Shown here: in pieces, positions 3,563 through 29,980 of the stretch
Layout of the letters: each line of letters starts with the position of its first letter
Position numbering within the stretch: the stretch's first letter is position 1
DNA from: Utricularia gibba
Taxonomy: Eukaryota > Streptophyta > Magnoliopsida > Lamiales > Lentibulariaceae
Length of the DNA stretch: 29,980 bases
NCBI GenBank assembly: GCA_002189035.1
Contig: NEEC01000104.1
Coordinates: 1-29,980 of the forward strand
Reading direction: 5' to 3'
Notes under the pieces: generated by a model
Databases searched by the model: none
What the model saw: the letters and a program-made list of their open reading frames with translations, nothing else
Told to the model about the DNA's origin: nothing
Program-made: the position numbers and the translations under genes

Positions 3563-3768
3563 TGACAAGTTTCACAACACTTGCTGCTATCTTCATCCTA
3601 ATTGCCTGTATGAATGAAAAATATCTACTTCTACATGCATCCTTCCATTAATCAAAATTGTTACAGCACTTTCTGAAGATTTAAAACCAACTTATTTCCA
3701 ATTAACATACAAGTCTTGCATTATGTTTGACAACTGAACACAAGACGCATTGGCGACAAAGGTAATTT

Positions 3769-10234: not shown

Positions 10235-11078
10235 GCTCCCTAGTCTACCAATATATATAGCTCCGCTTGCTTGTGTATCCGTACATGGGTATTTGCTTTT
10301 TAGGCTTCCTTATTGGGCCTTTAGCCCATTAATGCTACACATCCCTCACATTTTTAATTTTAATTATTTTTAATATTAAAATAAAATTTAAAAATAAAAA
10401 AAATAAAAAAATAAATATTAACTGTGCAGGTTGACCTAATTGTCCCTGCCTTTTAGAATTCCAATCACATCGAGACAACAAGAATGAGTCTTAATCCAGG
10501 CCCAATTACTAATTATTTTTTAAAAATATAATATTTTAATGCATTATTACCGAACTTAGGGGGGCAATCCTCTGCATTTGGCATCATGAAAGTCCCACAG
10601 GCTCCCATAAACCCAACAAGCACTATACAATATCGTATCATGATAATATATTATATTTAAATTTTAATATATTTTTTTAATTAGAAACATCGAAAGTGAT
10701 ATTACATTGCGCCTGCCTTTTACCTCCATCCCAAAATTTTTGTAAATATGTTAAATAATTTGTATAAAAATAGATATCTTTATTTTTTTATTTTTTAAAA
10801 TAAAAGGTGTTATTAATAAAATTGTACACTACTACATTCTTTTTCACATATTTAGATAACATAAAATAAATATAGAATGATTATTTTTTTATATATAATG
10901 TCTGACATATGGTCAAAATTCTAATTCGATTGTTACTGAAAAAAGTTGCATTTTCCATGAAAAAAAAAGGTATTCTTATTGGAATGTTAAGTATCCACAT
11001 AAAATCGGATTGCAATTATTAAAATTGGATTAAAAAAATGATTATATATGGAGGGCTTCTTGCCGTTGCTATTTATAT
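10235..11078. other. AT-rich intergenic region and CYP735A upstream region
   Basis: The first 80 bases are probably the rhomboid-like 3'UTR. The rest is AT-rich with many short A and T runs (10340-10420, 10620-10900). A TATA-like ATTATATATGG lies at about 11040, and a near-copy TATTTATATATGG ends at the first possible CYP735A start codon. No gene is seen. Confidence 0.5.
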
Positions 11079-11114
11079 ATGGAGGAATTTTGTGTGAGGG
11101 TATTGTTGGGGAGG

Positions 11115-12961
11115 ATGGGTAGTGTGCTGGGGCTAATGGCGGTTGCGGCGGGGTTTCTGTGTCTCTGCTTCTTGATGAAGCATGTTTACCAGACGGTGTG
11201 TAGCTACTTGCTGACACCCAGACGCATCAAAAGGGTAATGGAGAGGCAAGGGGTGAAGGGCCCGCCGCCGCGGCTGTTGGTCGGAAACCTACTGGAGATG
11301 GCGGCGATGGTGAAGGAGACAACCGCCGGGGATATGGATGGGATCAGCCACGACATCGTCGGCCGCCTTCTTCCGCACTTCGTGGCGTGGTCCAGAGCTT
11401 ACGGTGGGGTGAAATGGATGGATGATTTTTGGGGTTTGTGTGTGTCTGGTGGTGATGGAGATGCCGGGTTTTGCAGGGAAGAGATTCATATACTGGAACG
11501 GGACGGAGCCGCGGATGTGTTTGACGGAAACGGAGATGATCAAGGAGCTGCTCTCCAAGCACAGTACGAGTTCGGGGAAGTCGTGGCAGCAGCAACAGGG
11601 ATCGGAGCACTTTATCGGCAGGGGACTTTTAATGGCGAATGGCGACGAGTGGTACAAGCGCCGCCACATCGTCGCGCCGGCGTTTATGGGGGATAAGCTC
11701 AAGGTAATTGATTAATCTGCTGATATCACGTGAATAATATATATGCATTTTTCGGATTATTATTCTGGGCGTAGAGCTACGCAGGGTGCATGGTGGAATG
11801 CACCAAAGAAATGGTGGAGACGCTACGGGCGGCGGTGGAGGGAGGCGCGACGGAGGTGGAAATCGGAGAGCACATGACCCGGCTGACGGCGGACATAATC
11901 TCCCGGACGGAGTTCGACTGCAATTACGAAAAGGGGAAGCAGATTTTTCATCTGCTCACTGATTTACAGCAGCTCTGTGCTCAGGCGACTCGCCGGTTTT
12001 GCTTCCCCGGTAGCCGGTAATTCTGATAGTGATGATTTTCCATTCCAAAGGTCTACGCTTTTTGAGAAAGAAATATTAATATTTGTGGGTCAAAACCTCA
12101 GGTACCTTCCTAGTAAATACAACAGAGAAATAAAGATGCTGAAAAAGGAGGTGGAGAAGCTGCTTATGGAAATCATACAGAGCCGCCGCGACGGGGTTGA
12201 GATTGGCCGGCGAAGCTCTCACGGCAACGACTTGCTCGGAATGCTTCTAAACGAAATGCTATCCGGCGACGGGCTCTGCCTGAATCTTCAGCTGATAATG
12301 GACGAGTGCAAGACGTTTTTCTTCGCGGGCCACGAAACCACCGCGCTCCTCCTCACCTGGACAGTGATGCTCCTCGCCACGAACCCGTCGTGGCAGGACA
12401 GAGTCCGGTCGGAAATCAACGACTTTTGCGGCGGCCATGTGCCTTCCGTCGACCACCTCTCCAAACTCACAATGGTAAGCCATTCCCCCGTCCCCACCCT
12501 GAATCATTAAACCCCACTAACAAGATTCCCTCTTTCCAGCTAAACATGGTGATCAACGAATCTCTCCGGCTATACCCGCCGGCGTCCCTCCTCCCCCGAA
12601 TGGCCTTCGAGGACATTAAGCTAGGGGACCTCCACATCCCAAAAGGACTCTCCATTTGGATCCCCGTCCTAGCAATCCACCACAGCAAAGAAATATGGGG
12701 AGAAGACGCAAACCAGTTCAACCCCGGCCGGTTCTCCACCCGGAGCTCAGGCTCCGGTCGGAGCTTCCTACCCTTCGCATTCGGACCTAGAAACTGCGTG
12801 GGACAAGGGTTCGCGCTCATGGAAGCCAAGATCATATTAGCAATGCTGATTCCCAAGTTCAGGTTCACCATCTCCCCAAATTACCGCCACGCCCCGTCGT
12901 CGTCCTCACCATCAAACCCAAGCATGGAGTTCAAGTGTGCTTGAACCCCATCACTCCCTAA
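11115..12961 (+). CDS. CYP735A: Cytochrome P450 CYP735A, cytokinin trans-hydroxylase, about 517 aa
   Basis: The enzyme hydroxylates isopentenyladenine nucleotides to trans-zeatin forms at the ER membrane. Exons are 11115-11403, 11477-11703, 11775-12016, 12102-12474 and 12540-12961, all GT-AG and in phase. A membrane anchor near residues 5-30 is followed by LLTPRRIKRVMERQGVKGPP. Family signatures follow: RFIYWNGTEPRMCLTETEMI, LTADIISRTEFDC, the I-helix AGHETT (12324-12341), ESLR as the ExxR motif (12558-12569) and the haem loop FGPRNCVG near 12780-12803. These match CYP735A better than CYP734A or CYP72. The start is ambiguous: ATG at 11079 is in frame, but it overlaps a TATA-like stretch, and 11115 fits the family length. 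Near 12891-12900 (GCCCCGTCG) one base is missing. As written, the frame ends early at 12944. With one base added it continues to TAA at 12959-12961 with a normal C terminus. Confidence 0.9.
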
Positions 12962-14830
12962 ACTCCACGACACAAACTACACCTTCCTTTCCACACAGGC
13001 CTCTATTTTTGCATCGAGATTGTAATAAACAGACCATCCAAAACAAGTGAAATTTACCACAAGAAAATACACACAAAGGAGATGAGCGAATCTAGTGGCG
13101 ATCCAACCATGTGGCCGACTCGGCGACATACAATCAACAAAAGAAAACAATGAACTGCTACAGCAAATATTTGTTTATATATATATTCGTATCATCATCA
13201 CCTTTCTTCTTTTATCATGGAAAAAGTCTGGGCACCTTTGTGTCCCCAATTATTATCAACATCATCGAAGGCAACACAAATATCGTTTGTCTTGGGAGAA
13301 CAATAGAGGGCGTTCCAAATTTTTTCTAATTTGATCAATATTTTTATGTACTTTGGTTTATTTAATTAGATTATTAATTTTAACATAATATCATAGTACT
13401 TGTTTTGCGGCATTGTTTGAGTGGTCAAGATGAGTTTAGTATTGGTATGAATTTTGATTAAAAAAATAAGAAGATGCATTAAGTTTAAGTCATAAAAATT
13501 AAATTTACCTATGATTTAAAGACTAAATACAATCACAAAAAAACAAGTATTAAATAGATTTAAGATCAATTCTAATTCAGAGTGAATATTAGAATAAACA
13601 ATATCACATCGATATTTTAAAATAAAATAATTAAGTATATAAGAAATTACATATCAATAATAATTGATTGAGCTTATTTTTTAAAATATAATTTATATTT
13701 TTTATGTATTTAAGTTTCGATGTGTTCATCCGATTTATTCGATACTTAATTCCAATAGGGGTTGGGATGAAAAAATAACAAGGAGATCGAAAGCAAGCTA
13801 ATGTGGGTATGGCGATGATGTGCTTTAGTGCATGTAAGGTAGCGCCCGAGGAGCATATCTTGTAATAAAACTTTCAAAGCTGGATCAGATCCATTTATAG
13901 TTGTCAGATGTGTACGTACCCATAAAAAAAAAGAAAAGAAACTTTATCGAGCCAATCATGATGTGACACCTCATCTTTATAAAATTATACTCCTTTATTA
14001 TTATTTTATTGCAAAATTAATATTATAAATGATTATTGTCATTACACATGCCATATGATGGTCATGTTCTTAAATAATTGCTAAAATCAGCTCCTTTCTT
14101 ACCTTTTTTTTGTTTCATTAGTTATTTCAAAAAGTGTCATGACAACAAATATTTAAAATATTATCACAATTTTAATATATTTAAATTTTTGTTCAAGATT
14201 CCATTTTAAAGTTATAAACTTAATATATTTGAAAAATAACATTGTAATGGTGAATTAATTCCAATAATTATTACTCTCTCCCCTACAACAAAATAAAACG
14301 ATGTGAAAAACGATATTATTTACCAATTACATGATGGACTATAGTTCATATACTTTTTCCATTTGAGTGATAATATGCACTTCCATCATGAGAAACATAA
14401 ATTAAGTTGTATTTAAAAAGTTAGTTGCACAATATGGAAATAATTTTCAAGGTTTGATGGGCATGCCCAAAGAGCATGATTTGTAAATGAGAAATAAAAT
14501 AATTTTCTAAATTTTAGACTTTTTTTAAATTTGGGTAAAAATTATTAAATCGAATCTAAAGAATCATACTTTCAATATGAATGGGATCTAATCATCGAAT
14601 TCAGCTACAGATTTGAAAAGGAAGCGACATTTCTCTAACAAGAAAGTTAGTCATGTGACCGAAGGGCACTGTACCCACTAAGCCGCAACTATTCAGACAA
14701 ATCGACACAATGATATGGATAGTTTATAAGAATCTTGGTATTTGGACTCCATAGGTCAATGTGGGACGCCACCCAACTCCAGGGAAGATCAAATGAGCTC
14801 TGAAAAGTCAGTATATTCGTCTGCTGATAA
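12962..14830. other. AT-rich intergenic region downstream of CYP735A
   Basis: 12962-13340 probably includes the CYP735A 3'UTR; two overlapping short frames there have no recognisable product. 13340-14640 is strongly AT-rich and contains one copy of a dispersed repeat (13587-13755). I see no gene, tRNA or inverted-repeat transposon with clear ends. Confidence 0.5.
13587..13755. repeat. Dispersed AT-rich repeat, family A, copy 1
   Basis: The copy begins ATTAGAATAAACAATATCAC and ends near CGATACTTAATTCC. It shares ordered blocks with copies at 15852-16020 and 27927-28053: AATCAAGTATATAA-like, ATTAATAATnGATTG, TGTATTTnGGnTT and a CATTCGATACTTAA-like end. Identity by eye is only about 60-70%, so the copies are old. 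It could be a remnant of a solo LTR or small nonautonomous element. Confidence 0.45.
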
Positions 14831-14834
14831 GCTT

Positions 14835-14885
14835 TTTCGAGACCCTTCTAGATAATTCGATCTCGAAACACTGTATATAAGAGAG
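14835..14885. promoter_or_regulatory. Inverted repeat with TATA-like box, promoter-like
   Basis: TTTCGAGA at 14835-14842 is matched by its inverse TCTCGAAA at 14861-14868. Between them are TTCTAGA and TTC elements resembling an imperfect heat-shock element. TATATAAG follows at 14874-14881. The arrangement resembles an inducible promoter facing right, but no convincing gene follows. Confidence 0.3.
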
Positions 14886-15700
14886 ATGCTGATCAAGAAG
14901 AAGATGCCATAAGATTACGTGATCGGGAGCAGGTGGAGCAGAATCGAAGAGTGATTGATAATGTGTGCTCTTTTATAGCGCACCCAGGGGCAAGGGGGGC
15001 CGCACAGTTGTACCTACAGTACAGGAAACTAACAAAAGGGTGGTGCAGAAGGGAGGAGGAGGGGCCGGGAACGATGCAGACACAAAAGGCGTGAGTGCGG
15101 CGGCCTGTTTCCGAGCAAAAACTGTTAGAAAACCGTAAAGTGCGCACCCCCACTCCACCAATGTGTGTCTCATGATACGTCTTAATCGCGAATGATTTTG
15201 ATAAGACACACGCATGTTAGTGTTTTCTTTTCTTTTATTGCAGAAAACCCTTGTGGTTTGCTTTGAGTATCCCTCGTTTTCCTGGTCTCTGAGGCAAAGA
15301 CTGATCTTGCATTTTGAATAACAGCATTTGAATTGCAACACCCTCTTGGTCTTTCAGGGAGAAGAGTGTTTTGTGCACCGACATGCTGTCAGCAGATGAA
15401 CAAGAATGGTGTCCACTGTCCGGGAGGTGCCCGTTTGTAAGAGCCCATCGAGAAATCTGGGTTTTCCTCTGTCTTTGGACACCCATTTAAGAGGCCCAGG
15501 CGAAACTCTTGACAACTCAGAGTGCGCAGGCTGCATCATGCTTGGAACACTTAAAATATGCAATAAAAAGGAGACATAACCAGAGGAAGTCGGTCGGCGC
15601 CGTTGATGCAGCTTCTGTAACACAGCGGCGGCAGAGTTTCACCGTTTCTGCCCGTTGGCTGGGGTGAACTCCGACTCCCTCACTCTCTCGGGTCAATCTT
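14886..15700. other. GC-richer island without an assignable gene
   Basis: This segment is clearly richer in G and C than its surroundings and has open frames on both strands. On the plus strand a frame without a good start codon runs through about 15090 and contains DAIRLRDREQVEQNRRVIDN. The sequence TTTTCTTTTATTGCAG ending near 15241 looks like a 3' splice site, and a second open stretch covers about 15355-15500. I do not recognise any family. Given the many missing bases elsewhere, a short real gene with broken frame is possible. A decayed transposon is equally possible. Confidence 0.3.
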
Positions 15701-15835
15701 GTTGAAATTTAGTATGAATATGCATGTAAAACTCAAGTGTATAATAAATGTGAATCACATTATAAAAAATTAAGTATAATTAATTACTAATGATTTATAA
15801 TTTTTTATATATTTGATTATGTAACTTTTATTTTT
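15701..15835. repeat. Dispersed repeat, family B, copy 1
   Basis: The copy starts GTTGAAATTTAGTAT and includes ATAATAAATGTGAATCACAT followed by TTAATTACTAATGATTTATAA-like sequence. It resembles 16066-16200 (same order and orientation) and 28960-29045. Identity is moderate by eye. Confidence 0.45.
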
Positions 15836-15851
15836 TGTGATATTATATCAT

Positions 15852-16020
15852 ATTAGAATATACAATACCACATCGAAAAATGAAAATGACATAATCAAGT
15901 ATATAATAAATTGTGAATCATTAATAATCGATTGTATCTATTTTTTTTTTAATATGAATCACATTTGTTGTATATTTGGGCTTCGTTAGTGCACTCATAC
16001 AACCTATTGAATCCCGAATT
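15852..16020. repeat. Dispersed repeat, family A, copy 2
   Basis: The copy starts ATTAGAATATACAATACCAC and contains ATAATCAAGTATATAATAAA and GTATATTTGGGCTTCG, ending near CCTATTGAATCCCGAATT. It lies between two family B copies in the same orientation, which suggests that A and B are parts of one older element. Confidence 0.45.
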
Positions 16021-16065
16021 TAAACAATTCTCATTTAGCCACCCCATTGAGCCAATATGAATTGT

Positions 16066-16200
16066 GTTGAAATTAAGAATCTATAGAATCGTATAAATAC
16101 ACATAAAACCAAAGCATATAATAAATGTAAATTACATTAGAAAATATTAATTTTAATTTATTATGATTAATCTATAATTATTTATACACATGATTATTTT
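16066..16200. repeat. Dispersed repeat, family B, copy 2
   Basis: The copy starts GTTGAAATTAAGAATC and includes ATAATAAATGTAAATTACAT then TTAGAAAATATTAA. It is a direct repeat of 15701-15835 at a distance of 365 bp. Identity is moderate, so this is not a recent LTR pair. Confidence 0.4.
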
Positions 16201-16420
16201 AATTTCAAATTTAATTGTTTGTTTTAATAAATTGGGGTTACTACCAGATTTGGAATCACCCAACATGACTGCTGTGCTGACTGATTCTTTTCCAAAACCA
16301 TCAATCTGTAAACGGGTTCGGGTGATCCATTTTGAAAGATGGGGGATGGATACGGAGTGCTTGACCCGGACCACAGGTTCCATTCGACTCGTACAAGTTA
16401 CTAATTTAGGCAACTCTAGA

Positions 16421-16522
16421 ACGGCACACGTGGAGGTAGATCAGGCGCCCTCGCTAGAATGGCGCCACGTGTGTTTTTTCACTAACTATTGGAAACCGTC
16501 AGCTTTTTTATTTATATATTTA
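16421..16522 (+). promoter_or_regulatory. LEA gene promoter: two ABRE/G-box sites and TATA box
   Basis: ACACGTGG lies at 16426-16433 and GCCACGTGTG at 16464-16473. Both carry the ACGTG core bound by ABA-responsive bZIP factors. A TATA stretch, TTTATATATTTA, lies at about 16511-16522, and the start codon is at 16579. Paired ABREs at this distance are typical of LEA genes and point to ABA and dehydration control. Confidence 0.65.
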
Positions 16523-16578
16523 CTGCTCCACGGTACTCCCTCTTTCCCGGTAGATTGCTGTTCTGACTGTTTTCCGAT

Positions 16579-17064
16579 ATGGCGGTGAAGACGGCGGCGT
16601 TGGTGTTCATGTTGTGCGTCTTTGTGGCGGCGCGTGGGGAGGAAGAGGCGCCGGCCACTTCCGATGACGATAGAAATTCCGCCAGTTCTTGGGCGGGTTG
16701 GGCCACAAACACTTTCTCTAGGTACATAATTTTTTACTCCTCTTTTTAGTTTTTGTAATTTTGAATTAAATTAATTTATTTTAGAGGAATCAACATGGGC
16801 TCGGAGGAAGCCCAGAGAGCGGCTGAGAAAACCCAGGAAGCTGCTGGAGAAGCCACCGACACCGTGAATTCAGCTACATTTGGTGCATTTCTTGCTTCGT
16901 TTCATTGTATGTGATTCTGGAAGTTTGATCATTTTTTCTTTCTTCCTCTTTTTTTTCATCTCTCAGAGACGTCGAAGCAGGCCTCTGAAAAAGCGAGCGA
17001 CTTCGCCCAAAGCACATGGCAGAAAATGAAGCCTGAAGACCAGGACACAGGCAAACAAAACTAA
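16579..17064 (+). CDS. LEA-type secreted protein, 5' exons (gene split by the retrotransposon)
   Basis: The start MAVKTAALVFMLCVFVAARG is a signal peptide and is followed by an acidic stretch and SSWAGWATNTFS. This layout resembles plant LEA-domain proteins that enter the secretory pathway. Exon 1 is 16579-16721 and exon 2 is 16785-16863, with EEAQRAAEKTQEAAGEATDT. Exon 3 begins at about 16969, with TSKQASEKASDFAQSTWQKM, and meets a stop at 17062-17064. The alanine, lysine and glutamate repeats are typical amphipathic LEA_4-like helices. The donor of exon 2 has an alternative at GGTGCA, 16879. Before insertion, exon 3 may have spliced from a GC donor (CAG/GCAAAC, after 17050) to the exon now beyond the element at 22743; that intron would have been about 123 bp. 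Otherwise the protein ends at 17064, at about 105 aa. Confidence 0.7.
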
Positions 17065-17165
17065 ATTTGTTGTGTGGTTTGCTCTGAAATGGGCGCTGCA
17101 CTCATTCACTAATCATGCTCTGAAACGAATAGTGGGTTGTGCTCTGTTATTGATGATGCATCTTC

Positions 17166-17611
17166 TGTCAGCAAGTGGTGGAGCAACGAAGATCCGGGAA
17201 GTCTCAACCCGCGAAGATGAATGGCGCGCGACCTCTGTTCCTCCCATGAGAAGCAACCCTCAATTAGATTGGGAAAAAGGCCTTATCATACTTGGGCCTC
17301 AACATTCCAAACTACTGGCCCAAGAAGAAGCATCTGAAGCCCAGTCCATGAAAGAAGTCCTAGTAAATTCTGGCTGCTACACAGTAGATGAACAAGAGGA
17401 CTAATCTACAGACTAAAGGCAACGGTCATATTTTAGGCCTGATATGATCCAACGGGCAACTCTCCTCATCTATATAAATCCCTGTTTGCTTTATGAAAAA
17501 AAAGGAAAGTTCTTTTCGATCCAAAAACAATAGTCAATATCCACAAACTTCAACATTCTCTCAACGTTCAACCAAGTCTCCAACAAAATCAAGCAGCCAA
17601 AAATACTTTTA
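17166..17611 (+). repeat. 5' long terminal repeat
   Basis: The LTR is 446 bp. It carries a TATA box (TATATAAAT) at about 17471, followed by the A run at about 17495 where it has eight A. The ends are TG...TA rather than the usual TG...CA. An open frame of about 79 codons, starting at SASGGATKIREVSTREDEW, runs through its first part. Confidence 0.93.
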
Positions 17612-17628
17612 TGGTGAACCCGACGTGA
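17612..17628 (+). other. Primer-binding site (not of the initiator-Met type)
   Basis: TGGTGAACCCGACGTGA follows the LTR without a gap. TGG matches a tRNA CCA end. The following bases do not match the TGGTATCAGAGC site, complementary to initiator tRNA-Met, found in most plant copia elements. I cannot name the tRNA. Confidence 0.6.
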
Positions 17629-17676
17629 AGATACTTCACCGACTCCCATCTCCTCTTATCATTGCAGTCTCTCAGA

Positions 17677-20600
17677 ATGGCAGCCCTCCAACAAGCTCCT
17701 CCAATCTTCACTGGTCAGCGCTACGCTTCTTGGGCAGTACGAATGGAAAGTTACCTGCAAATGAACGACTTATGGTCTGTGGTGGATCCTGTACGTCCAG
17801 ACTCCTCTGAAATAGCCACAGCAGAAAGTCTCAAACTCACAGATGCTCAAGTAAAGAAAGCTAAGTATGCTCTGGATCAAGCCTTATCTGAAGAAGTGTT
17901 CAACCGTGTTATGCTACTGAAAAGTCCCAAAGACATCTGGAAAAAATTGGAGGAATTCTACGGAGAGGATACGGAAGCCCGTGAGAGCCGCATTCAACGT
18001 CAATGGGAGCTCTTTGACAACCTGAAATTCTTACCAGGTATGAGTATCTCTCATTTTTCAGAAACGCTAATCAAAATTGTCACTGAGTTACAGACCTTGG
18101 GAGAGCCCTTGGAAGACAGAAGAATTAAATCAAAAATACTCAGTTCCCTACCGCGGTCCTTTGCCCCTGTAGTCACTACTTTGCGGGTCACAGGCATTCA
18201 CTCCATATCCTCCAGAAAACTACTAGAAAGACTCAGTGAATCCGAAGTTGAAGTCGGACTTGGTGAAGGCCAGGAACTTGCCTTCAAGGCAACAGAAAAT
18301 CAGAAAGGCTATGGTTCTCAATCATCAAATGAACCGGTGATCTTTCAAGCAAAAATTGAGAAACCAAGTACTGGAGATTCATGCCCATTCTGCAAGCGAA
18401 AAGGCCATTCACCAACACAATGTTTCTGGAGCCCTGACGCCAAATGCCTGTACTGTTCTCTCCAAGGTCATGTGGACAAAGTGTGTCCCCTGAAAAAATA
18501 CCATCAGATTGGAGGAAAGGCTGCAGATCCTAAGGACAAACTTACTAGCGCTATGAATGATGTAAATCTCGCAGCTGAAATGAATAAGAAGAAGATTGAT
18601 ATTTACTCTCTGCGCCGCAAAACTCTAATCACATCATTTGTGGATCTAAGGAAACAAGACATCTGGTTTATCGATAGCGGATGCAGTCATCATATAACCA
18701 ACGACAAGAGTCTATTCACAACCTTCATCGAGCTAACTGGGAAAGTAATCGAAATTGCTGATGGAAATCACTTACAGGTCATCGGTCAAGGAACAGTTTG
18801 CCTTGAAACTGTCCAGAAATTAATCAAGATCACAGACGTGTATCTGGTGCCCCAGGCCTACCACAATCTACTAAGCACTGGCCAGCTGGTTGAAAAGGGG
18901 ATGAAAGTTCATCTGGAAAGTAATGAGTGCAAAATATTAGATGAAGAAGATAATATACTCCTTACGGTTGCTATGACTGATAGGGTCTTTCCACTGCTTC
19001 CGAATGCTACATCCATCGATTACAACATTTGCCTCAAGTCCCTAGAATCATCTGAGATTTGGCACCAACGGTTAGGTCACCATCACTATGCCTCCCTTAT
19101 ATCCATGAAGAAGAGAAACCTGGCAGAGGGGATTCCTAATATAATTCCTGAGGAAAAACACTGCAGAATATGCTTTCAAGGGAAGATGAGCCGAACACCA
19201 CTCCCTAAGTCCAGCATTCATTCTCAGAAAAAATTGGAAGTTGTTACCAGTGACGTCTGTGGGCCCATGGCCTCTCCTACTCGAGCCGGCAACAAATATT
19301 ACGTGATCTTTATTGACGAATATTCAAAGTATACCTGGATCTATCTCCTGAAGCATAAATCAGAGGTTTTGCACCACTTCCAAGTCTTCAAGGTCCTTGC
19401 AGAAACTCAAAGCAATAGTAAGATTCTAACACTCCGGTCAGACAACGGAGGTGAGTACAAATCAACTGAACTGAGACACATTTGTGAGACAAATGGTATT
19501 ACTCACCAGTTTACAACGCCATATACGCCAGAGCAGAACGGCATATGTGAACGAAAGAACAGGACAATAGTCAATATGGCTCGGTGTCTACTCTATCAAA
19601 AACACTTACCTCTAGAATTCTGGGCGAAGCAGTCAACACAGCCGTGTATCTGTTGAACCGCCTGCCAACCAAAGGAAATAAAGACTGTAAAACTCCTTAT
19701 GAGCTATGGTACAACAAAATTCCAAGCCTAGATCACATGAAGGTATTTGGATCACCCTGCTATATATACATTCCAAAGGAGAAGAGATCAAAATGGGACA
19801 AAAGATCTGATGAAGGAATTTTCCTGGGATATAGCAATACAAGTAAAGCCTACAGGGTACTGAATCTAAGAACAAATGAGGTGGAACTCAGTCGTGATGT
19901 AACAGTAGACGAGACTAGAATTTACAACTGGAGTTCCTCGACAACACATGACAAAAATCATTCTTATTCAGAAAATATATGGAATTTATTCCCTCAACAA
20001 GGACATGATGCAACAACCGAACCCCTCAGCATCCACCCAGCGAGGAACAGTCCTAGTCAAGACTCTATTCAACAAGAAATGACAGCCTCAGGAACAAATA
20101 TGTTAAGGGTCCAAGCAACCCTAGAAGATCAAATCACAAACTCAAATGATCGAGCCTCAAACTCAACAGATTTAAGAGGACACTCGGTGTCAACGACAGA
20201 CATCCTAGAAGTCTCTAATAGCGAAAATTTGCCACCACCTAGTCCTGATGTTCCGAGAACAATTGAGCCCGAAAGCCCCTGTACAACAGAAGATCCTGTT
20301 AATACCCAACAGTTTCCAGAAGGCTCCTTGGCCACTACTATCGAAGACATGAGATATGAGGATGCAGACTCAGAGCACATACCTGAACAAACTCTAGAAT
20401 GTCATGAAACCCTCATCAACAGCATCAGAAATCCAAAGGAAATCACTGAGCTATCATCAACCGATACATCAGAAGAAGAAAACTCATCAGGAGAAGATGA
20501 AGAAACTCAAAACCGAGGACCCAACCTAGCAGCAAGAAATCCTATACTCATTCCCTCACCTCAAAGGCAAAGTTACCTGGAAGATTACGGACAAGAAGGG

Positions 20601-22523
20601 GTTCCTTACACCCCACATCATCTATGTATGGATCTGAAACAAAATGAAGACAGCTCACCTGTGCGAGGATATGCACCAATCAACGATATCTATGATAGGG
20701 CATTGAGCACCTATGAACCAGCAAGCGTTCAGGAAGCTCTCGCTGACCCAGATTGGAAGAAATCCATAGACGAAGAATTCAACTCCATCCAGAAACACGG
20801 CGTTTGGACAGCAGTGCCTAAGCCGAAGCAGAAAAAACCTCTGGACCTAAAATTCATATTCCGTCCCAAGTTAAATCCTGATGGCACTCTGAACAAAAGA
20901 AAATCCAGACTGGTGGTAAAGGGATATTTACAGAAAGAAGGGATTGATTACCTGGAAACCTTCGCTCCGGTGGCAAGATTAGACACCATTAAGCTGATTA
21001 TTGCACTTGCGGCCTGCAACAAGTGGTATTTACATCATCTGGACATAAAAACGGCCTTTCTGCATGGAGAGTTAAGCGAAGACATATATGTGAACCCCCC
21101 TCCAGGTTTCATCATCCGAGATAATCCAGAATATGTACTGAAATTAAATAAAGCTTTATACGGACTCAAGCAGGCCCCAAAGAATGGTATACTACCATTG
21201 ACACTTTCTTTCTAGAGCTGGGATATACAAGAAGTCAAAATGATACTACATTATACATATCTGAGGATATCCAAGGAAAAGTTATTGTCTCCTTATACGT
21301 AGACGACATTCTAATCACAGGCAGCAGTGAAGAACGAATTTCTGAATTACAGAAGCTATTGCAGCAAAGATTTGAACTCACCAATCTGGGACATGCACGT
21401 TATTTCCTAGGAATGGAGATCATTCAACATAAAGACTTCATATTTTTGAACCAACGTAGATATACAGAGAACTACTCAAAAAATACAGCATGGAATCATC
21501 AAAAGTATCTACTACTCCTTTCTCACCAGAAGTTAGAAAGAAATTATCTGACCTTAATTCTCATCCAGTTGACTCTCATAACTACCAGAAACTCATTGGC
21601 GCTCTGATGTATTTAACTGCTACTAGACCGGATATAACCTTCGCCGTATCATTTCTGGCCAGATTCATGCATCAGCCACACAACACACACCTGGAAATAG
21701 CAACACGTATCCTGAAATATTTGAAGGCCACAACTTCCTTTGGTTTATATTACAAGAAAGGTACTAACCCTATTTTGCAGGGATTTGTTGATTCAGACTT
21801 TGCTGGCGACGAACAAGATTGTAAATCTACCACAGGCTATCTATTCAACTTAGGATCAGCGGTATTTTCATGGAACAGCAAGAAACAAGCCGTCACTGCA
21901 CAATCATCGGCAGAAGCCGAATACATCGCAGGAGCTGCTGCTGCCAACCATGCGCAATGGTTGGTGAAATTATGCGATGACCTGAAAATTCAAATTACAA
22001 GACCGATAATACTCAAGATAGATAACAAATCTGCCATTAGCATCGCAAAAAATCCTGTGATGTTCGGTCGACCAAGCACATCAAGCTTAAATACCATATA
22101 CTCAGAGATTATGTGAAGGAAGGACTGATTAAACTTGAGTACTTACCATCGGATGAGCAACCTGCAGATATTCTCACCAAATGCTTATTCCCAAGGAATT
22201 TCAACAGAATCAGAGAAATGCTGGGAATTCGGAGAAATCCTCTTGTGACAACAGCCGGATCTTCATTACTCCCTCAGGGAGGAATGTCAGCAAGTGGTGG
22301 AGCAACGAAGATCCGGGAAGTCTCAACCCGCGAAGATGAATGGCGCGCGACCTCTGTTCCTCCCATGAGAAGCAACCCTCAATTAGATTGGGAAAAAGGC
22401 CTTATCATACTTGGGCCTCAACATTCCAAACTACTGGCCCAAGAAGAAGCATCTGAAGCCCAGTCCATGAAAGAAGTCCTAGTAAATTCTGGCTGCTACA
22501 CAGTAGATGAACAAGAGGACTAA
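17677..22523 (+). CDS. Copia gag-pol polyprotein (frame broken four times)
   Basis: The frame starts MAALQQAPPIFTGQRYASWA, the usual gag N terminus. Two CCHC zinc knuckles follow at 18382-18423 (CPFCKRKGHSPTQC) and 18445-18486 (CLYCSLQGHVDKVC). The protease motif WFIDSGCSHHIT is at about 18664. A pre-integrase zinc region follows, with HQRLGHHH and CRIC. The integrase core carries SDVCGPM, RSDNGGEY and a glutamate in the segment ending CERKNR. The reverse transcriptase has LDIKTAFLHGEL and YVDD (about 21296). RNase H has DSDFAGD and SSAEAEY. Breaks lie near 19626, 21180, 21473 and 22072, each consistent with one lost base. The last block stays open through the purine tract and 79 codons into the 3' LTR, to a stop at 22521-22523. 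Confidence 0.9.
22275..22284 (+). other. Polypurine tract
   Basis: CAGGGAGGAA lies immediately before the TGTCAG start of the 3' LTR. Its purine part is the expected plus-strand primer for reverse transcription. Confidence 0.8.
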
Positions 22524-22729
22524 TCTACAGACTAAAGGCAACGGTCATATTTTAGGCCTGATATGATCCAACGGGCAACTCTCCTCATCTATATAAATCC
22601 CTGTTTGCTTTATGAAAAAAAGGAAAGTTCTTTTCGATCCAAAAACAATAGTCAATATCCACAAACTTCAACATTCTCTCAACGTTCAACCAAGTCTCCA
22701 ACAAAATCAAGCAGCCAAAAATACTTTTA
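22285..22729 (+). repeat. 3' long terminal repeat
   Basis: The LTR is 445 bp and, by eye, identical to the 5' copy except for seven rather than eight A near 22615. Its TATA box at 22590-22598 faces the orphaned LEA exon, which begins about 150 bp downstream. Confidence 0.93.
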
Positions 22730-22742
22730 TCTTCTGCTGCAG

Positions 22743-22959
22743 AAGGAACAGGCCAGGGATCAAAGATGGTGGCTCAGAGGCGTATGAAAAGGGCAAAGAA
22801 AAGATAAAAATGGCGACGGAGAAAGCTTCTGATTTGTACGAGGACGCAAAAGAGAAGGTTGGGGAGACGTATGAATCCATGTCTGCAGAAGCGAGGCAAA
22901 AATATGAAGCAGCCAAAGAGAGAGCTTCACAGGCAGCAGGAGATATAGGGCCCAAATGA
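22743..22959 (+). CDS. LEA-type gene, orphaned last exon
   Basis: After the target duplication, TGCTGCAG provides a 3' splice site. The exon reads EAYEKGKEKIKMATEKASDL, then YEDAKEKVGETYESM and QKYEAAKERASQAAGDIGPK, with a stop at 22957-22959. These alanine, lysine and glutamate heptad-like repeats continue the style of the 5' exons, so this is very likely the end of the same gene. Joining it to the 5' part by the GC-donor model leaves the frame off by one base between 22743 and 22790 (GATGGTGGCTC is the likely place). As the DNA stands, a 5.56 kb element lies in the intron. Splicing across it or termination in the LTR would decide whether any full-length mRNA is made. Confidence 0.65.
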
Positions 22960-23160
22960 GGAGGGAAGTGCAGAATTGTGAGAAGTCTCTGTCTTTTGTT
23001 CATCAATAAGGTTTTGAACCACTGGAAATCAAACATCTTAGTAACATATATCAGATTTTGGAGTATGCATAGAAAATGATTCTCCATGGAAATCAAGTAC
23101 GTTGCTTTTCAATGTACACCGTCATACCAAAAAAACAGTAAGAAGCTGAGAAATTGAAGC

Positions 23161-23655
23161 TCATCCAAAGCACTGTTCGCTGGGAAGAGGACCGGGAAGG
23201 GAACCCTGATCGAGAAACTGCAATCCAAACACCACAATTATTCCCAACAGACACAGATACGAGAGACCCTCAACGGCTCCCAGTAATCCAAATGGCCCGT
23301 TCGGAAGACCCGAACCCGTTTTGCTCTTCGTGTACAGAGACCACGCCACGATTGCGCCAACCGTCAGAAAACTCACTCCCTCCAGCGCGCCGATTGATCC
23401 TCCAGGACCCGGAGGGAGCCCGCATCTGGTGGTCTTAAGTGTGTACAGAGACCAAACCACCACCGGTTCGCGATTAGACCTCCTATAATGGCTGCGCTCT
23501 CCACGACGGTGGGGCTGCCGCTACCCTTCGCCACGGGCCATGGCGTGAATTTTGAGATACGGCAACGGGGAATGGATTCCGGCCGGTGCAGAAGGCGGCA
23601 TAGCGACGGCAGCTTGCGATTGCGGGAATTGAAAGGGGGTTGATAGCAGCAACAT
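23161..23655 (-). CDS. Small plastid-type membrane protein with twin GLPxGPxG repeat
   Basis: The minus-strand frame contains two tandem units. The first is VWSLYTLKTTRCGLPPGPGG plus SIGALEGVSFL. The second is AWSLYTKSKTGSGLPNGPFG plus LLGAVEGLSYL. A hydrophobic segment (LCLLGIIVVFGLQF) and the end PGPLPSEQCFG follow. I recall such proteins as conserved in plant chloroplasts and of uncertain function. The upstream part is serine- and arginine-rich like a transit peptide and includes ESAAIIGGLIAN. One base is missing near 23455-23468 (CCGGTGGTGG on the coding strand) between IIGGLIAN and VVVWSLYT, and a second slip is likely within the transit region. The start at 23655 is therefore tentative. 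The gene is convergent with the LEA exon. Confidence 0.7.
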
Positions 23656-23719
23656 TTTTTTTCTGGATGGAGCTTGTGGCTGCGAACTGGCTGCCTTAGC
23701 TTCAGATGCGAGAGCAATG

Positions 23720-24539
23720 GCTACAAAAATATTAGCTTTTTATTCTTTATTTCTTTTATTGTACAGAATTACACATCGCATACATCACCCCTAATCAGAT
23801 CCGTTGCCAAGATCCGAATCATCCACCTCTCACGAACTATTTAGCTACTGTATTTTGCAAACTCAGGTACAGAGTCCTCGTTCAGATCTGTCCAAGCTAC
23901 ATTTTTTCAACGAAAACTTTAAAAAACGGAATCTGGTAGCAATTTGAAGTGCTAGTTGCAGCCAGGAATGGTGAGGCAGGAGGCAACTCCACTATACGGT
24001 GTACAGGCCACGTTGCCCACCGACTCATCACGTGAACGGACGCAAATTCCTGGCTCATTTCTCGCTTATGTTCCGCTTTAATCGCGAATCGTCAATGCGT
24101 TTTGCCTTTAGTTTTAGTTTGTCATCCAACGCTCCCCTGTTGGTGTCGGTCTGAAATTTCTCTCTTTTATCTCAAATCTCCAAATGGGTTTCGTTGTTTT
24201 TCCTTTCCCTTTGATGGATGCCTCCTGTTGATAGATCCATGTTTTGCATTCTTGCCTAAGGATCATTTTCTGTGATTTGCGAATTGGTAGGAAGTAGTTT
24301 GGTTCATCGTTTTGAATCAGTTTCGCAATTGCACAGGGTTTTCCATCTAATTCAACTCCAAAAACAATCTGAACTTTTGCTGCGTTACATACGTTTTTGA
24401 AGGAAAATTCCATCTTTACAAGGGAAATGGAACATGGGGTCAATTCTCTCGAGCTTGCAGTTTTCTTGTACAGTACAGTTTCTCATAGATGCAACATTTC
24501 TCTTTGCCGTAGGCTGTAAGAAGCTAGCTTTGCCACAAA
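23720..24539. other. Intergenic: upstream region of the E2 gene
   Basis: This gap separates a minus-strand gene from the plus-strand E2 gene, so it probably carries both promoters. 24100-24539 is T-rich and likely part of the E2 leader. CACGTG occurs near 24030. The long minus-strand open frame at 24114-24443 shows no family features. Confidence 0.4.
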
Positions 24540-25449
24540 ATGTCCTCCCTAGCAAGAGGCGCGATATGGACATCATGAAACTGTGAGTATTGCTTTCCCA
24601 TGGTTTTTCTTCGCTGACGCGATATGGATATCATCTACATGACTGCAGAATGATGAGTGATTATAATGTTGAATCGGTTGATGATCGCGCAAATGAGTTC
24701 AACATAGAATTTCATGGACCCAAAGAGAGTAATCTACCAACCTTGTCATTGTGCAAAGATGACAATTTTGTTTACCTACTGTTGCTGTCTCTTTCACTTG
24801 TTGATCACTTTCTTCTCTGCGCTGCATCTGATTTAGGTCTGTATGAAGGTGGAGTATGGAAGGTTCGAGTTGAACTTCCTGATGCATATCCTTACAAGTC
24901 TCCTTCTATCGTGTTCGTGAACAAAATTTTCCACCCCAATGTCGATGAACTGTAAGCTCTGCAAGTCTTTCTGTTTCTGTGTGCATCTGAGTAGCTAGCG
25001 CCTTCCTTGTCTTGATAGGTCTGGATCTGTCTGCTTGGATGTGATAAATCAGTCTTGGAGTCCGATGTTCGGTACGCACAAAGTTTGCTCGAATTCTTCT
25101 TGTCGAATCCAGGGCATATTGGTGTCTTCTTCTAATGCAGATCTGATAAACGTGTTCGAGGTGTCCTCCCTCAACTACTGCTTTATCCAAACGCAGCAGA
25201 TCCCTGAATGGAGATGCTGCCTCCCTCATGATCAAAGACAGGACCCAATACGAACAGAAGGTGAAGGGTATGTTCTCTACCTTGATCCTTTCTTTTATCA
25301 TGGGAGCTGAGATGGTTTCGGTGATCAGAATACTGCGAACGCTACGCGAAGCAGACTGTGGGTAACGCCGGATCGGAGGAGAGTAGCGATGAGGCAAGTG
25401 ATGAGGAAGAATTCAGCGACGAGGATGTTCTGGTCATGCCGATCTGTGA
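24540..25449 (+). CDS. UBC5: Ubiquitin-conjugating enzyme E2, UBE2H type (Arabidopsis UBC4/5/6 group), about 180 aa
   Basis: Exons are 24540-24582, 24649-24728, 24837-24951, 25019-25071, 25141-25267 and 25329-25449. The product carries ubiquitin as a thioester and passes it to E3 ligases. Clear signs are [20 protein letters not shown], the HPN motif in FHPNVDEL, and the active-site cysteine in [17 protein letters not shown]. The C-terminal tail is acidic ([16 protein letters not shown]), as in this subfamily. Four one-base losses break the frame: the CCC at 24547-24549, 25164, the CCC at 25202-25204 and the GG at 25432-25433. Each added base restores family sequence, and the frame then stops at 25447-25449. 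All splice phases fit the corrected frame. The choice of UBC5 within UBC4/5/6 is nominal. Confidence 0.88.
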
Positions 25450-25600
25450 TTTCCCGTTTCCTCAACTCCTTGATGATTGCTGTGAAACTAGAACCAGAAA
25501 CCGGGTGTTTTTTTTTTTTTTTACCAGAAAAGATGAAAAGAATTAAGTTTTTGCATTCAAACAAACGTAAATGCAGACAAAAGAGACACTGACCGATCCC

Positions 25601-26060
25601 TCAGTGCGGAGTGCTCTGCAGATTCTTGATCGCCCCCGGAATCGCCGCGTATCGCGCCGAGAAGTCCCTGAAAACCACATCGCTATCGTCCTCGGCTCCT
25701 GTCCCCGTCCGTCGTCGAAATTGAGGGCGTAGCTCAAAGGATCGTACTGAAATCTCGTCGGCTTCACTCTTCCGGAAGTCTTGTTAAGCCGCCGAATGAA
25801 CGTCTTCCACTTAGGCCCAGCGAGGAGCTCCGACCATTCCCTCACCTTCTTCAACGCATCCACAGAATTCATCGAAAAACTCCGATGACGTGTTCCGGCA
25901 CAGAAATCCGCTCCCAACCTTCCGATTTTCTGGATCCAAAACAGGGGAATTGGAGGCAGCGGGAGCCCCATCCAGAGCTATCAAAGACACCTGAATTCGA
26001 TTCATCAACGGGCTCATTCGCGTCGCTTCTTGAGGGTAAACCGGCGGCGAGTTGCGCCAT
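25601..26060 (-). CDS. Conserved plant protein of unknown function, about 153 aa
   Basis: This looks like a single exon, from ATG at 26060 (MAQLAAGLPSRSDANEPVDE) to TGA at 25603-25601. The middle carries VREWSELLAGPKWKTFIRRL and FQYDPLSYALNFDDG, and the end reads VVFRDFSARYAAIPGAIKNL. I recall this tryptophan/arginine-rich core and the YDPLSYALNFD motif from small plant proteins without an assigned role. No signal peptide or membrane segment is evident. Two one-base losses break the frame, near 25880-25884 and near 25709-25711; both are consistent with a lost G on the coding strand. The gene is convergent with the E2 gene, with stops about 150 bp apart. A run of about 17 T lies at 25506-25522 between them. 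Confidence 0.7.
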
Positions 26061-27758
26061 TAAACCGAACTCAAAAGAAACCCTAGCAGAAAACTCCCAT
26101 ATTCAAAAGCTTTCTTCCCTCTTACTTCGAGTTTCCTGCTGATTTCCCTGATCTAAACCGGCGAGTGGAAAAACGGTAACTCGGAAGGGCTACGGGGAAA
26201 CGCCGGTTTCAAGAAGCGCCATCTTTACTACGCTCTTTAAAGAAGTAGCCAGATGGCAACCGGCAGATGACCGGAATACACCTGGGTATAGAATTCCAGG
26301 TCAGTGAGGTACAACGGTCGAGCTACGGCCTAGGTTTTTAAACACTCCATCGGTGGGTTAGGTTTTAGGGCTTTCAACAATAAAAATGATACATTTAATG
26401 AAATTCATTATTTATTAATAAAATATATGAAAAAAATAAATTATACAAAGAAATAATGAGGTTAAAACATTAAACTTGAGACTTAAACATTTTTGAAAAA
26501 TTTTTGAAATCATATATTTACTTTTTAAAAATAAAAATAATTTTGTTCTAAAATATTAATAATTATAAAAGTAATTTTATCAAAAATATTTTAAAATTAT
26601 ATTATAAAAATTACTTTTAAAAAATAATAAATATATTACTTTTACTTTTCTAAAATAATTTTTAAAAAGTAAAAATAAATTCCAAAAATTTTCCAAAACA
26701 ATATTTTAGATGATATTCTACACGACTTTTTGAATTACTTCTCCTTATACAATCATAATAATACGAATATAATCAGAACAATAAATAATTATCTTTTTTC
26801 TTTTGTTTTTAAATTTTTCTTTCTTCTTATTCATCCATTCCCTATCATTTAAAATGGGATAGACACCAAGTTTTATCATCCTAAAAATATTATATGAATT
26901 TACCTTTAATATGCTAGATTTTGTTTTTTGAAACTTTTTGATAATAAACTACCTTTTATAACCTCTTAAAAACAATAAATATCTATATTTTTTTTTCAAC
27001 CAAAAATCGTTTATGTTTTTCGTCTGATCTACCAAAATCGCTGATTTGTTGAGAAAATATTTAATTTAATCTTCTTTCATATAATAAAAATAGAATTTAG
27101 AAAAATACCCATTTTTAGATGCCCACATTGAAACTTGTTCGATATTTTGGCCTCGCCAAGCCACGAGCCGCCGTTCAGCCCAACGTAGTGGCCCATATTG
27201 CAATGTCCACTTTGCTTACCGCGTATTCATATGATATTTTAATTTACTCAATATTAAATGTAGGTGGAATTAATTTAGATAAAAAATAAATAATTTCAAA
27301 AATACGAATGTGTTTTATAAATATTATTATTAATTAAGAATCATTTCTCACGTGCATGATATAAAGTTTATGATGAAATTCACATATGATATTATCAAAA
27401 TTCTATATTAAATAATTATAAACACACATTAGATTAATATTGAAATTTCATCAAATGATTAAATAAACTCATTTTAAATAAAATAATTACTTAAATGTAC
27501 AATCCATATTATTAAATATCAGTCCTTAACAAATATGTGACTAAGCTCTAAAATATTATATAACTAATGAAATATGCAATAAAAATTCTGAAATATTGTT
27601 AAGACTGGTCTAGTGGTGGCAGGTTGTGCAAGAGAAGGGGTTGAAGGCCAATAAGCAATACACGTTTCGTGTGTGCTCCAAGGCGCTAAGGATTAGACAC
27701 CTACCAGAAGACATTAACATATACCTAAACCTCTGCTCCCCTCCTCACTGTGCACTAC
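26061..27758. other. Intergenic: 5' flank of the minus gene, then AT-rich DNA
   Basis: 26061-26380 is of mixed composition and includes the likely leader and promoter of the 26060 gene, with TTAGGTTTTAGGG (telo-box-like) near 26358. 26380-27600 is very AT-rich with long A and T runs and no open frame of interest. A short GC-richer patch lies at 27150-27230. I see no mobile-element ends. Confidence 0.45.
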
Positions 27759-27878
27759 CTTGTGATCATCTTGGCCACATGACACTAGCCGAGCATTCAT
27801 TTGGAACAACATGCAGTTCAGATCCTCCCACCTCCTCTTAATGCCATCCTTGATTCGCATCCATTCAAACTCGTTGTT
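27759..27878 (-). other. Isolated exon-like stretch, 40 codons, unknown family
   Basis: On the minus strand TTTACAG precedes and GTAGTG follows a 120 bp stretch open in phase 0. It reads NNEFEWMRIKDGIKRRWEDL followed by NCMLFQMNARLVSCGQDDHK. The composition is protein-like (tryptophan- and charge-rich), unlike the surrounding AT-rich DNA. No neighbouring exon is recognised, so it may be a captured or relict exon. Confidence 0.35.
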
Positions 27879-27926
27879 CTGTAAAGTATGCGTGGGTGGA
27901 GCTAAATCAGAGAAAGTTAAAAGTTA

Positions 27927-28053
27927 AATAATCAAGTATATAAAAAAATATATATTAATAATGATTGGTTCTATTTGATATTTTATAATGTAATTCATGT
28001 TTATTATGTATTTGGATTTTAAGTAATCATTTGATTCATTGGATACTTAAGTT
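27927..28053. repeat. Dispersed repeat, family A, copy 3
   Basis: AATAATCAAGTATATAAAAA, ATTAATAATGATTGG, TTATGTATTTGGATT and CATTGGATACTTAAG follow the order seen in the two other family A copies. The left part of the unit is missing or diverged here. Confidence 0.4.
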
Positions 28054-28352
28054 TAATATTAGGTGAACAAGGAAGCATGCTGGCTAGATGTTCCGTTTTT
28101 TAATCTTTCTCACCCAAGTGCATGAAAATGGTGAAATTTTTTTCGTGTAGTTGAGTTTTTGGTGCAATGAGCGGTATGCATTGTAAAAGTGCTGGTTTAA
28201 GAGAGTAATCATTTGCATCTTGTGTTCACCAATCATGGCGTATGGTTGAGATATTTCATGGAACTGGTTAGAATACCCCCCAATAATTTGATATTTCTGC
28301 AGTCGCACACACAAGCCACACACACGTAAAGCAGCGTCGATCAATACTCGTT

Positions 28353-28614
28353 TCAGTTGTGTACTACCTCCATGACGGTTTCCCGACGATGAAAGCTCCG
28401 GTGGCAGCCGCAGGCGGCGCAAATGAGGGCCCCACGGGTGCCGTCCTCGCGGAGCCATGAACTCCCGCAGCCGTCCACTGCGTAGCCGCCCTCATTCGCA
28501 ACCTGGTTCTTCTGGCACTCGCGTACCTCACCGTCCGCACGGTGGAGCGGAGCCGGTAGAGTTGGTCGGAAATTGGTCGTCGGATTTCAAGCAGACCACG
28601 TGGCGTTTCTTCAT
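28353..28614 (-). CDS. MIF: MINI ZINC FINGER (MIF) protein, about 88 aa, frame broken several times
   Basis: The start is MKKRHVVCLKSDDQFPTNST, as in MIF proteins. The ZF-HD-type zinc finger follows in pieces across frames: TVRY, ECQKNQVANEGGYAVDGC, EFM, then EDGTRGALICAACGCHRSFH and RRETVMEVVHN with the stop at 28355-28353. The MIF family has only this zinc finger and no homeodomain. Its members pair with ZF-HD homeodomain factors and block them, affecting hormone response and floral meristem ending. About four slips fit lost G or C bases: near 28512-28550 (before TVRY), at TACGCGAG, at TGCGGGAG and near CTCCGCGAG, the last possibly of two bases. The GC-rich coding sequence may explain the density of errors. 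The 88-residue reconstruction matches the family length. Confidence 0.75.
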
Positions 28615-28705
28615 TCGGACGGGGAGTGAGATGCTCCCTGTCTCCTCAAGATTGTTATCTCCACCAAATCGGACTGGTTTTCTTCTTCGTCTATGTGCAG
28701 CGGGG

Positions 28706-28719
28706 AACCCTAACCCTAG
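28706..28719 (-). promoter_or_regulatory. Telo-box-like element upstream of MIF
   Basis: AACCCTAACCCTAG lies about 90 bp upstream of the MIF start codon. Such telo-boxes occur near transcription starts of plant genes active in dividing tissue. Confidence 0.45.
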
Positions 28720-28959
28720 ATAGCTCCATTTATACAGCGAGACAGAAGATTCCTTTCAAACGTGAACCACTAAACATATTTGTTTGGCAGATATTTTTTA
28801 ATTATTCCGTTAATCACCATATTATAACACTTTGTTCCTGTACGAAATACCGAAAATCAATAAACAAAAAAACGAGCCATTCCTCCCGTTGCCTATTCAT
28901 GATACATCTGGTTTCATGGACTAGTCAATTCTAAATATTAAATAAGTTATAGTATACTT

Positions 28960-29045
28960 GTTGAAACTAAGTATCGAAGTAATTCAAATATATAAAAAAT
29001 ATAGATCACATTAGAAAAAATTATATTCAACTAATATTTAATTAT
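28960..29045. repeat. Dispersed repeat, family B, copy 3
   Basis: GTTGAAACTAAGTATCGAAG, ATATAAAAAATATAGATCAC and ATTAGAAAAAATTA parallel the family B copies at 15701 and 16066, with a shorter preserved length. Confidence 0.4.
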
Positions 29046-29856
29046 TTTTTCTAATAATACTTTGTATTTTCACTTAGCTAGTATTATATTAATATCAACT
29101 AATTATCTTTATATTTCCACTAGAGTCATAAGTAACTCCCCACCCTATTTTAGTCTCAACTAATAATGAATTGATGGCGCCCAACTACCCTGCTTCCAAG
29201 CCTCACTTAGCGAGGCCCACTCACTAGATTATTGGAAGACCCCTGGCCCCACACCACGTTCACTTCATTTCACCCCTCAGGACCGACGGACGACGCCGTT
29301 TCCTACAGGAGGCGACGGGGTGTTATTAAATAAAAATATAGATTATATTACATACTGTATTTCACGAATGCTTTAATTCAACTGCAAATTTGTCGTCAAA
29401 ATTATTTTATTTTGCTTTTCAATCTGAAAAGGTCGACGACAATGGAATGTTTGTCGGTACTAGTAAAATTGAATTGAAAAAAAAATAAGATTATAAATTG
29501 AGCATCAATTATGTCATTAATATAAATAATAGCAACTGTTTTTTTATTTTTAAATAATAGAAATCAATTATAAATGGTTTTGCGTAGCTGAGGGTCAATG
29601 AGATGGGCCCATGCTTCACCATTTAAAATAATGATATAATAACCAAAAATACGTAAGCCATGCCATGCATGCGGTGTTGGGTTGTGGGGGAGGCCCATGT
29701 GAAGTCATGGCCCAATCCTCTCCCTGCTGCAGGCCCAGCAGCTGGTGGATGGGTCCTTTTGTCCCAGTAGGAAGGACATGAGATGGGGTAGGGGCCAGGG
29801 GCTCCAATGATGCGGCTCTGCTTGGCCCAGCAGCTGCTTCCATTCAAAGCATTTAT

Positions 29857-29880
29857 GGGTCCGGGTCCGGGTCCGGGTTT
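29857..29880. repeat. Short tandem repeat (GGGTCC)
   Basis: There are about three and a half uninterrupted units of GGGTCC. It is low-complexity sequence that generates proline-glycine reading in several frames. Confidence 0.8.
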
Positions 29881-29980
29881 TGTCCATGTAATTTGGTCCA
29901 CTCCCGAGTTTACATCAACCATTTGGTCCAATCGTACCGCATCACTTCAAATCACATTACGCCCATCATAATCACCCTGT

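Follow-up and report, generated by a model that had tools for sequence, protein, structure and literature searches.

Several Ty1/copia long terminal repeat (LTR) retrotransposons of plants are known to be active, including Tnt1, Tto1, Tos17, ATCOPIA78/ONSEN and ATCOPIA93/EVADE. The window analyzed here, a complete small contig (C343, 29,980 bases) of the Utricularia gibba assembly G000 (516 contigs, 100,091,633 bases), carries such an element inside a gene for a late embryogenesis abundant (LEA)-like protein. It resembles plant Ty1/copia elements (Pseudoviridae) in the order LTR, primer binding site (PBS), gag, integrase, reverse transcriptase (RT), polypurine tract (PPT), LTR, in its 5-bp target site duplication (TSD) and in its PF14223, PF00665 and PF07727 domains, and its family resembles the active plant elements in having recent insertions in and beside genes. 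It differs in a primer site that fits tRNA-Trp and not the initiator tRNA-Met used by plant Copia elements in general, and in that its family has few copies (at least 11 full-length; genome-wide counts of LTR and element matches are lower bounds throughout).

The best explanation of the locus, to which we assign a probability of about 0.8, is that a recently active, tRNA-Trp-primed Ty1/copia element inserted in sense orientation into the last intron of the LEA-like gene. This kind of element and of event is well known, and the useful part is the set of empty and filled alleles visible in one assembly. None of the titles and opening lines of abstracts that were seen mentioned this element or described Copia insertions as polymorphic in U. 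gibba, and publication elsewhere is possible. The features of the locus, all on the forward strand, are as follows.

16427-16471, +, two G-box/ABRE-like motifs CACGTG, starting at 16427 and 16466 (pattern count)
16579-16721, +, exon 1, with a hydrophobic, signal-peptide-like start (gene model)
16785-16882, +, exon 2, 3' end uncertain as an alternative donor is also in frame (gene model)
16967-17050, +, exon 3, ending at the GC donor ACAG/GCAAAC (gene model)
17161-17165, +, left TSD copy, TCTTC (sequence; one copy in the empty allele on C328)
17166-17611, +, 5' LTR, 446 bp, with a TATA-like TATATAAAT at 17471
17612-17627, +, PBS, complement of the 3' end of tRNA-Trp, anticodon CCA (sequence)
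17662-19656, +, frame with gag (PF14223), Pol beta-barrel, gag-pre-integrase and integrase (PF00665) (Pfam)
19584-21215, +, frame with SH3-like domain and part of the reverse transcriptase RVT_2 (PF07727) (Pfam)
21490-22280, +, 3' part of pol in two further frames (open reading frames, ORFs)
22275-22284, +, PPT CAGGGAGGAA, the first C not being part of it (sequence)
22285-22729, +, 3' LTR, 445 bp (alignment to the 5' LTR)
22730-22734, +, right TSD copy, TCTTC (sequence)
22743-22981, +, exon 4, with the stop codon of the C328 frame at 22979-22981 (gene model)

The element (17166-22729, 5,564 bp) is a Ty1/copia LTR retrotransposon and lies in the same direction as the LEA-like gene. Integrase precedes RT, which is the copia order, the gag is of copia type, and the PBS and PPT directly follow the 5' LTR and precede the 3' LTR, respectively. 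The LTRs are direct repeats with TG...TA termini, flanked on the outside by the 5-bp TSD, and a search of 16000-24000 for direct repeats of at least 40 bases gives nothing but the two LTRs, whose match a gap divides into two parts. The original prediction of a perfect TCTTC duplication and of LTRs differing by a single homopolymer A holds: both TCTTC copies are in place, and the LTRs (446 versus 445 bp) are free of substitutions and differ by a single gap base within an A-run, with no divergence of several percent. The 16 bases directly 3' of the 5' LTR complement the 3' end of tRNA-Trp, including the CCA. The genome has 45 occurrences of a 13-base core of this PBS, 22 in forward and 23 in reverse orientation, compared with 2 and 3 for the same core written backwards, and these occurrences include copies of this and related elements. 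Thirteen core loci were scanned with ARAGORN, which found a tRNA-Trp, ending in the core on its 3' side, at three (L066, L067 and L069), and no primer tRNA gene at the first three scanned (L058-L060).

The decisive comparison is with C328, a 2.64-Mb contig that holds the pre-insertion site with a single TCTTC. The left flank (16400-17165) matches C328:1302019-1302782 and the right flank (22735-23400) matches C328:1302783-1303451, so that the two directly adjoin. LTR elements are not cleanly excised, so an undisturbed site that has a single copy of the TSD and lacks a solo LTR represents the pre-insertion allele. Since the empty site lies in the same assembly, the insertion is polymorphic in the sequenced material, which confirms the proposal that it is recent and might still be polymorphic. 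C343 and C328 can be aligned to the left (window 1-17167) and to the right (22729-29980) of the element, at 99.0-99.8% identity, with 16 mismatches in 17.2 kb on the left and 5 in 7.3 kb on the right, and 24 and 59 gap openings. When all difference events were kept, 100 were counted, of which 63 are single-base length changes in runs. The 39 events to the left (17.2 kb) comprise 16 substitutions, 8 losses and 14 gains in C343, and one complex event. To the right (22735-29980, 7.2 kb) there are 61 events, with 49 losses in C343 (42 of a single base), 2 gains, 7 substitutions of one or two bases, and 3 complex events.

From these sequences, C343 and C328 appear to be two alleles of one plant. 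It is very improbable that they are instead paralogous duplicated segments with the insertion fixed in one: each LEA flank is found exactly twice in the assembly, on C343 and on C328, the identity is high and the differences are mostly the single-base run changes described above, and seven further loci, described below, show the same pairing of contigs. What such a duplication has in its favor is that the comparison covers sequence only. A misjoin of the element into the LEA intron during assembly is scarcely credible, even though C343 is a short, error-rich contig, as a misjoin does not create a perfect TSD and complete LTR termini, and the ten other full-length copies each carry their own TSD.

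Those copies show that the structure in the window is not due to chance. The LTR is matched at least 29 times across the genome; 22 of these matches make up 11 full-length pairs and 7 are single LTRs or fragments (76-98% identity), including a solo LTR on C412 with GCTTC on both sides. All ten other full-length copies have a TSD, exact over 5 bp in nine and one T short, in a T-run, in the tenth. Joined 90+90-base flank pairs of the ten were used as queries for empty sites, and a complete, unbroken match was found for seven, or 8 of 11 with the C343/C328 pair. Each of the eight pairs joins a contig of at least 739 kb to one of 25-60 kb, differing by one element, with the element on the small contig in four and the empty site on it in the other four.

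ORFs at or near nine of the ten other sites (all except that on C321) were scanned with Pfam, and eight gave a match. Exon or intron status at these sites was inferred from the sequence, and the matches are given uncorrected for the rate at which random insertions hit genes. These nine copies are listed below, with substitutions counted over the first ~8 kb of flanking haplotype; in these pairs, alignment pieces shorter than 150 bases (first ~8 kb) or of up to 300 bases (extensions, see below) were excluded, and substitutions touching a gap were tallied as indel events.

C412 copy: empty site on C5; 1 substitution in ~8 kb; amino-acid transporter ~0.6 kb away (Pfam)
C236 copy: empty site on C505; 1 substitution in ~8 kb; near the start of a PPR protein (Pfam)
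C422 copy: empty site on C414; 2 substitutions in ~8 kb; inside a 138-residue ORF without a Pfam match
C328 copy (2411134): empty site on C338; 1 substitution in ~8 kb; protein kinase, with the Pfam match ~1 kb away and the site just behind a GC donor by sequence
C486 copy: empty site on C480; 0 substitutions in ~8 kb; TPR protein, in an intron by splice motifs
C413 copy: empty site on C248; 11 substitutions in ~8 kb; ABC transporter nucleotide-binding domain (Pfam)
C451 copy: empty site on C73; 2 substitutions in ~8 kb; NIN-like GAF region, just under the Pfam cut-off, with RWP-RK and PB1 nearby
C213 copy at 752834: pectinacetylesterase (Pfam)
C213 copy at 1916707: ribose-5-phosphate isomerase upstream (Pfam)

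The LEA-like gene (at 17051) and the protein kinase gene (L030, near 4092) both seem to use GC donors, and both insertions lie near splice sites; two cases are too few to indicate a preference.

The LTR pairs of all eight copies with an empty site have 0 substitutions, with one gap base in three of them. In the three copies for which no empty site was found, the pairs show 0, 0 and 2 substitutions, so the sole substitution-bearing pair belongs to a copy without an empty site. Compared with the C343 LTRs, those of the C422 and C328 (C328b) copies have 1 and 2 substitutions, alike in both LTRs, as expected for LTRs copied together. All 11 copies are internally 100% identical (rounded) over both halves, the second half of the C422 copy being matched in two pieces, whereas the next relatives in the genome have 64-75% DNA identity. 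Nine other copies match the second half over its full length, and in them this half is 2-4 bases longer than in the window. Separately, the C422 copy (G000:C422:39210-45387) is ~600 bp longer, with ~310 bp of the second half of the window element replaced by ~920 bp; it still has an identical LTR pair and an empty site on C414.

At several points the polyprotein frame is broken in the window copy. Some of these interruptions could be sequencing errors, given how often single bases are missing from C343 to the right of the insertion. Of the two 3' pol frames, the first gave no Pfam match at E 0.01 and the second none at E 10, and for RNase H, with the frames broken in this copy, 21490-22116 gave no Pfam match at E 0.01. 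Among the 11 copies, the RT part is free of stops in seven and has two internal stops in four, and the open frames around the RT matches vary widely, reaching more than 1,600 codons in one copy; longer open copies of the family thus exist.

The flanking haplotypes provide an estimate of age. Extension of three pairs by ~11-12 kb each added 0 (C486/C480), 1 (C236/C505) and 0 (C412/C5) substitutions, and the six pairs of low divergence combined have 8 substitutions in ~83 kb (~0.01%), along with 81 unclassified indel events that we take to be mainly long-read errors, as in C343. Divergence is higher, ~0.1%, in C413/C248 (11 in 8 kb) and on the left side of C343/C328 (16 in 17 kb). At the Arabidopsis substitution rate of 7e-9 per site and generation, 0.01% corresponds, as a point estimate, to ~7,000 generations since the haplotypes parted, and the insertions would be younger. 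The left flank of C343 gives about 66,000 generations at the same rate, and its LTRs (0 in 445) bound the insertion age weakly. One caveat to these values is that substitutions can be masked when contigs that are almost identical are polished with reads from both haplotypes.

Six of the eight pairs have flanking haplotypes that hardly differ, so these six insertions may postdate the last inbreeding, or be clonal. Our tentative suggestion, on which we would not insist, is that transposition of the family is ongoing and falls within the line's recent history of inbreeding or clonal growth, with new copies arising in already homozygous regions and some in coding exons. If true, the plant would be a natural system for watching de novo, possibly somatic, retrotransposition. 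The near identity of these six pairs would also fit a sample that was a mixture of plants or clonal lines, with insertions polymorphic between individuals and not heterozygous within one, and an assembly alone cannot separate mixture from heterozygosity. We regard a mixture as unlikely, although no specific observation argues against it. The family is young enough for 8 of 11 full-length copies still to be accompanied by an empty site, and the eight filled and empty pairs are ready-made markers. U. gibba is noted for how small its genome is, and insertion into genes would be going on there in spite of the tendency to small genome size.

The host gene is best seen in the empty allele. The original prediction placed the 3' exon in the same gene, beyond an intron of about 123 bp if the donor is CAG/GCAAAC, and C328 bears this out: exons 1-4 lie within 836 bp and join in frame via a GC-AG intron (exon 1 taken from the window, exon 4 from C328). 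The introns are 63, 84 and 123 bp long, the third being 5,692 bp in the window, and the insertion lies in this last intron, with 8 nt and the 5-nt TSD ahead of exon 4. The element is therefore inside the gene, as had been stated, but it interrupts an intron and not the coding sequence. The gene end proposed at 22959 comes from a frame not shared by C328 and has to be moved to the stop codon at 22979-22981. Compared with C328, C343 is one G short in each of three G-runs (between 22756 and 22963). With the letters of the window itself the frame of exon 4 breaks soon past the junction, and C328 lacks one G in exon 1 compared with the window. Given these differences in both contigs, neither assembled allele reads through all four exons of the gene model. 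A chimeric LTR-LEA protein (ORF 22612-22959, from the 3' LTR into exon 4) was considered and rejected, as it depends on the absence from C343 of a G that C328 has at 22756, and the C328 letters give another LEA frame.

The modeled protein (window exons 1-3 and C328 exon 4) has 188 residues. The best 13-residue window of exon 1 has a mean hydropathy of 2.88, from residue 6, and its likeness to a signal peptide is judged by hydropathy. From residue 21, the grand average of hydropathy is -1.18, and the mature part has no Cys and is rich in Ala, Glu, Ser and Lys. The protein is thus strongly hydrophilic and Cys-poor, as in hydrophilins, and LEA-like is a description by composition and hydrophilicity. 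It shares with LEA-type proteins that have a signal peptide the hydrophobic start and the Cys-free, hydrophilic mature part, and differs from them in the absence of an LEA model among the Pfam matches listed; those listed are weak and far under the cut-offs (for example, apolipoprotein). The LEA identity first proposed is accordingly upheld in composition but not by a Pfam family. As for its assignment to an abscisic acid (ABA)-type gene with an ABA-responsive element (ABRE) promoter, two CACGTG motifs do lie 113 and 152 bp upstream of the ATG (there are eight in the whole window), but for ABA control these motifs are the only evidence. No paralog that might buffer the gene was among the matches listed in a protein search of the genome (E up to 0.1), where all 8 matches were to C343 or C328; as it used a 177-residue model and considered only the best candidates, it may have overlooked a distant paralog.

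In the proposed sequence of events, the tRNA-Trp-primed element would have landed in sense orientation in the 123-bp last intron, and all of the native intron end but its last 13 nt now lies 5.6 kb further upstream; the 5' LTR may also be where transcripts end. With the intron end displaced and termination in the LTR possible, the inserted allele would make little normal mRNA. Read-through into intron 3 meets a TAA after GKQN, giving 112 residues without the last 80 of the 188. The inserted allele is thus likely a recessive loss-of-function or truncating allele, the effect of which the intact allele should mask.

The other possibility is that the insertion is functionally near-silent, with splicing removing the element together with the rest of a 5.7-kb intron. 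In the filled allele, exon 4 is still preceded by the acceptor AG and a pyrimidine-rich tract (TACTTTTATCTTCTGCTGCAG), and the 5' LTR has no AATAAA. However, the other introns of the gene are only 63 and 84 bp, the GC donor is of an uncommon type, and sense-oriented LTRs bring their own promoter and 3'-end signals. We consider a near-silent insertion somewhat doubtful, and loss of normal mRNA from the inserted allele would be more likely than clean splicing.

Several observations weigh against the reading of a recent, disruptive insertion into an LEA-like gene. The intron keeps its last 13 nt, acceptor AG included, directly behind the LTR end TACTTTTA, and the 5.7-kb intron could thus be spliced correctly. 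No LEA family (LEA_4 or other) is among the Pfam matches listed at E up to 10 for the 177- and 188-residue models, a search in which the HMMER filters drop most weak matches. Three of the 11 copies (both C213 copies and that on C321) gave no empty site in the flank-pair search. The right part of C343 is of lower quality and rich in losses (49 of 61 events), which makes frameshifts there unreliable, and the allelism and the splicing effect are both read from the assembly sequence. More generally, a small contig of an assembly like this may represent an alternative allele, and frameshifts in it are unreliable.

A second, related Copia family (RT 74% identical at the protein level) has many equal-scoring copies, six of them with a 1,593-codon open frame. 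Copies lie at C2:5455849, C3:596659, C4:3374813, C213:2868187, C244:1608698 and C508:151325, and on the small contig C245 (19827). This may be another young, polymorphic family. Elsewhere in the window there are ORFs at 11079-12944 and 1695-2726, which by their appearance we take to be a CYP78-type cytochrome P450-like and a Sec14/patellin-like gene, respectively.

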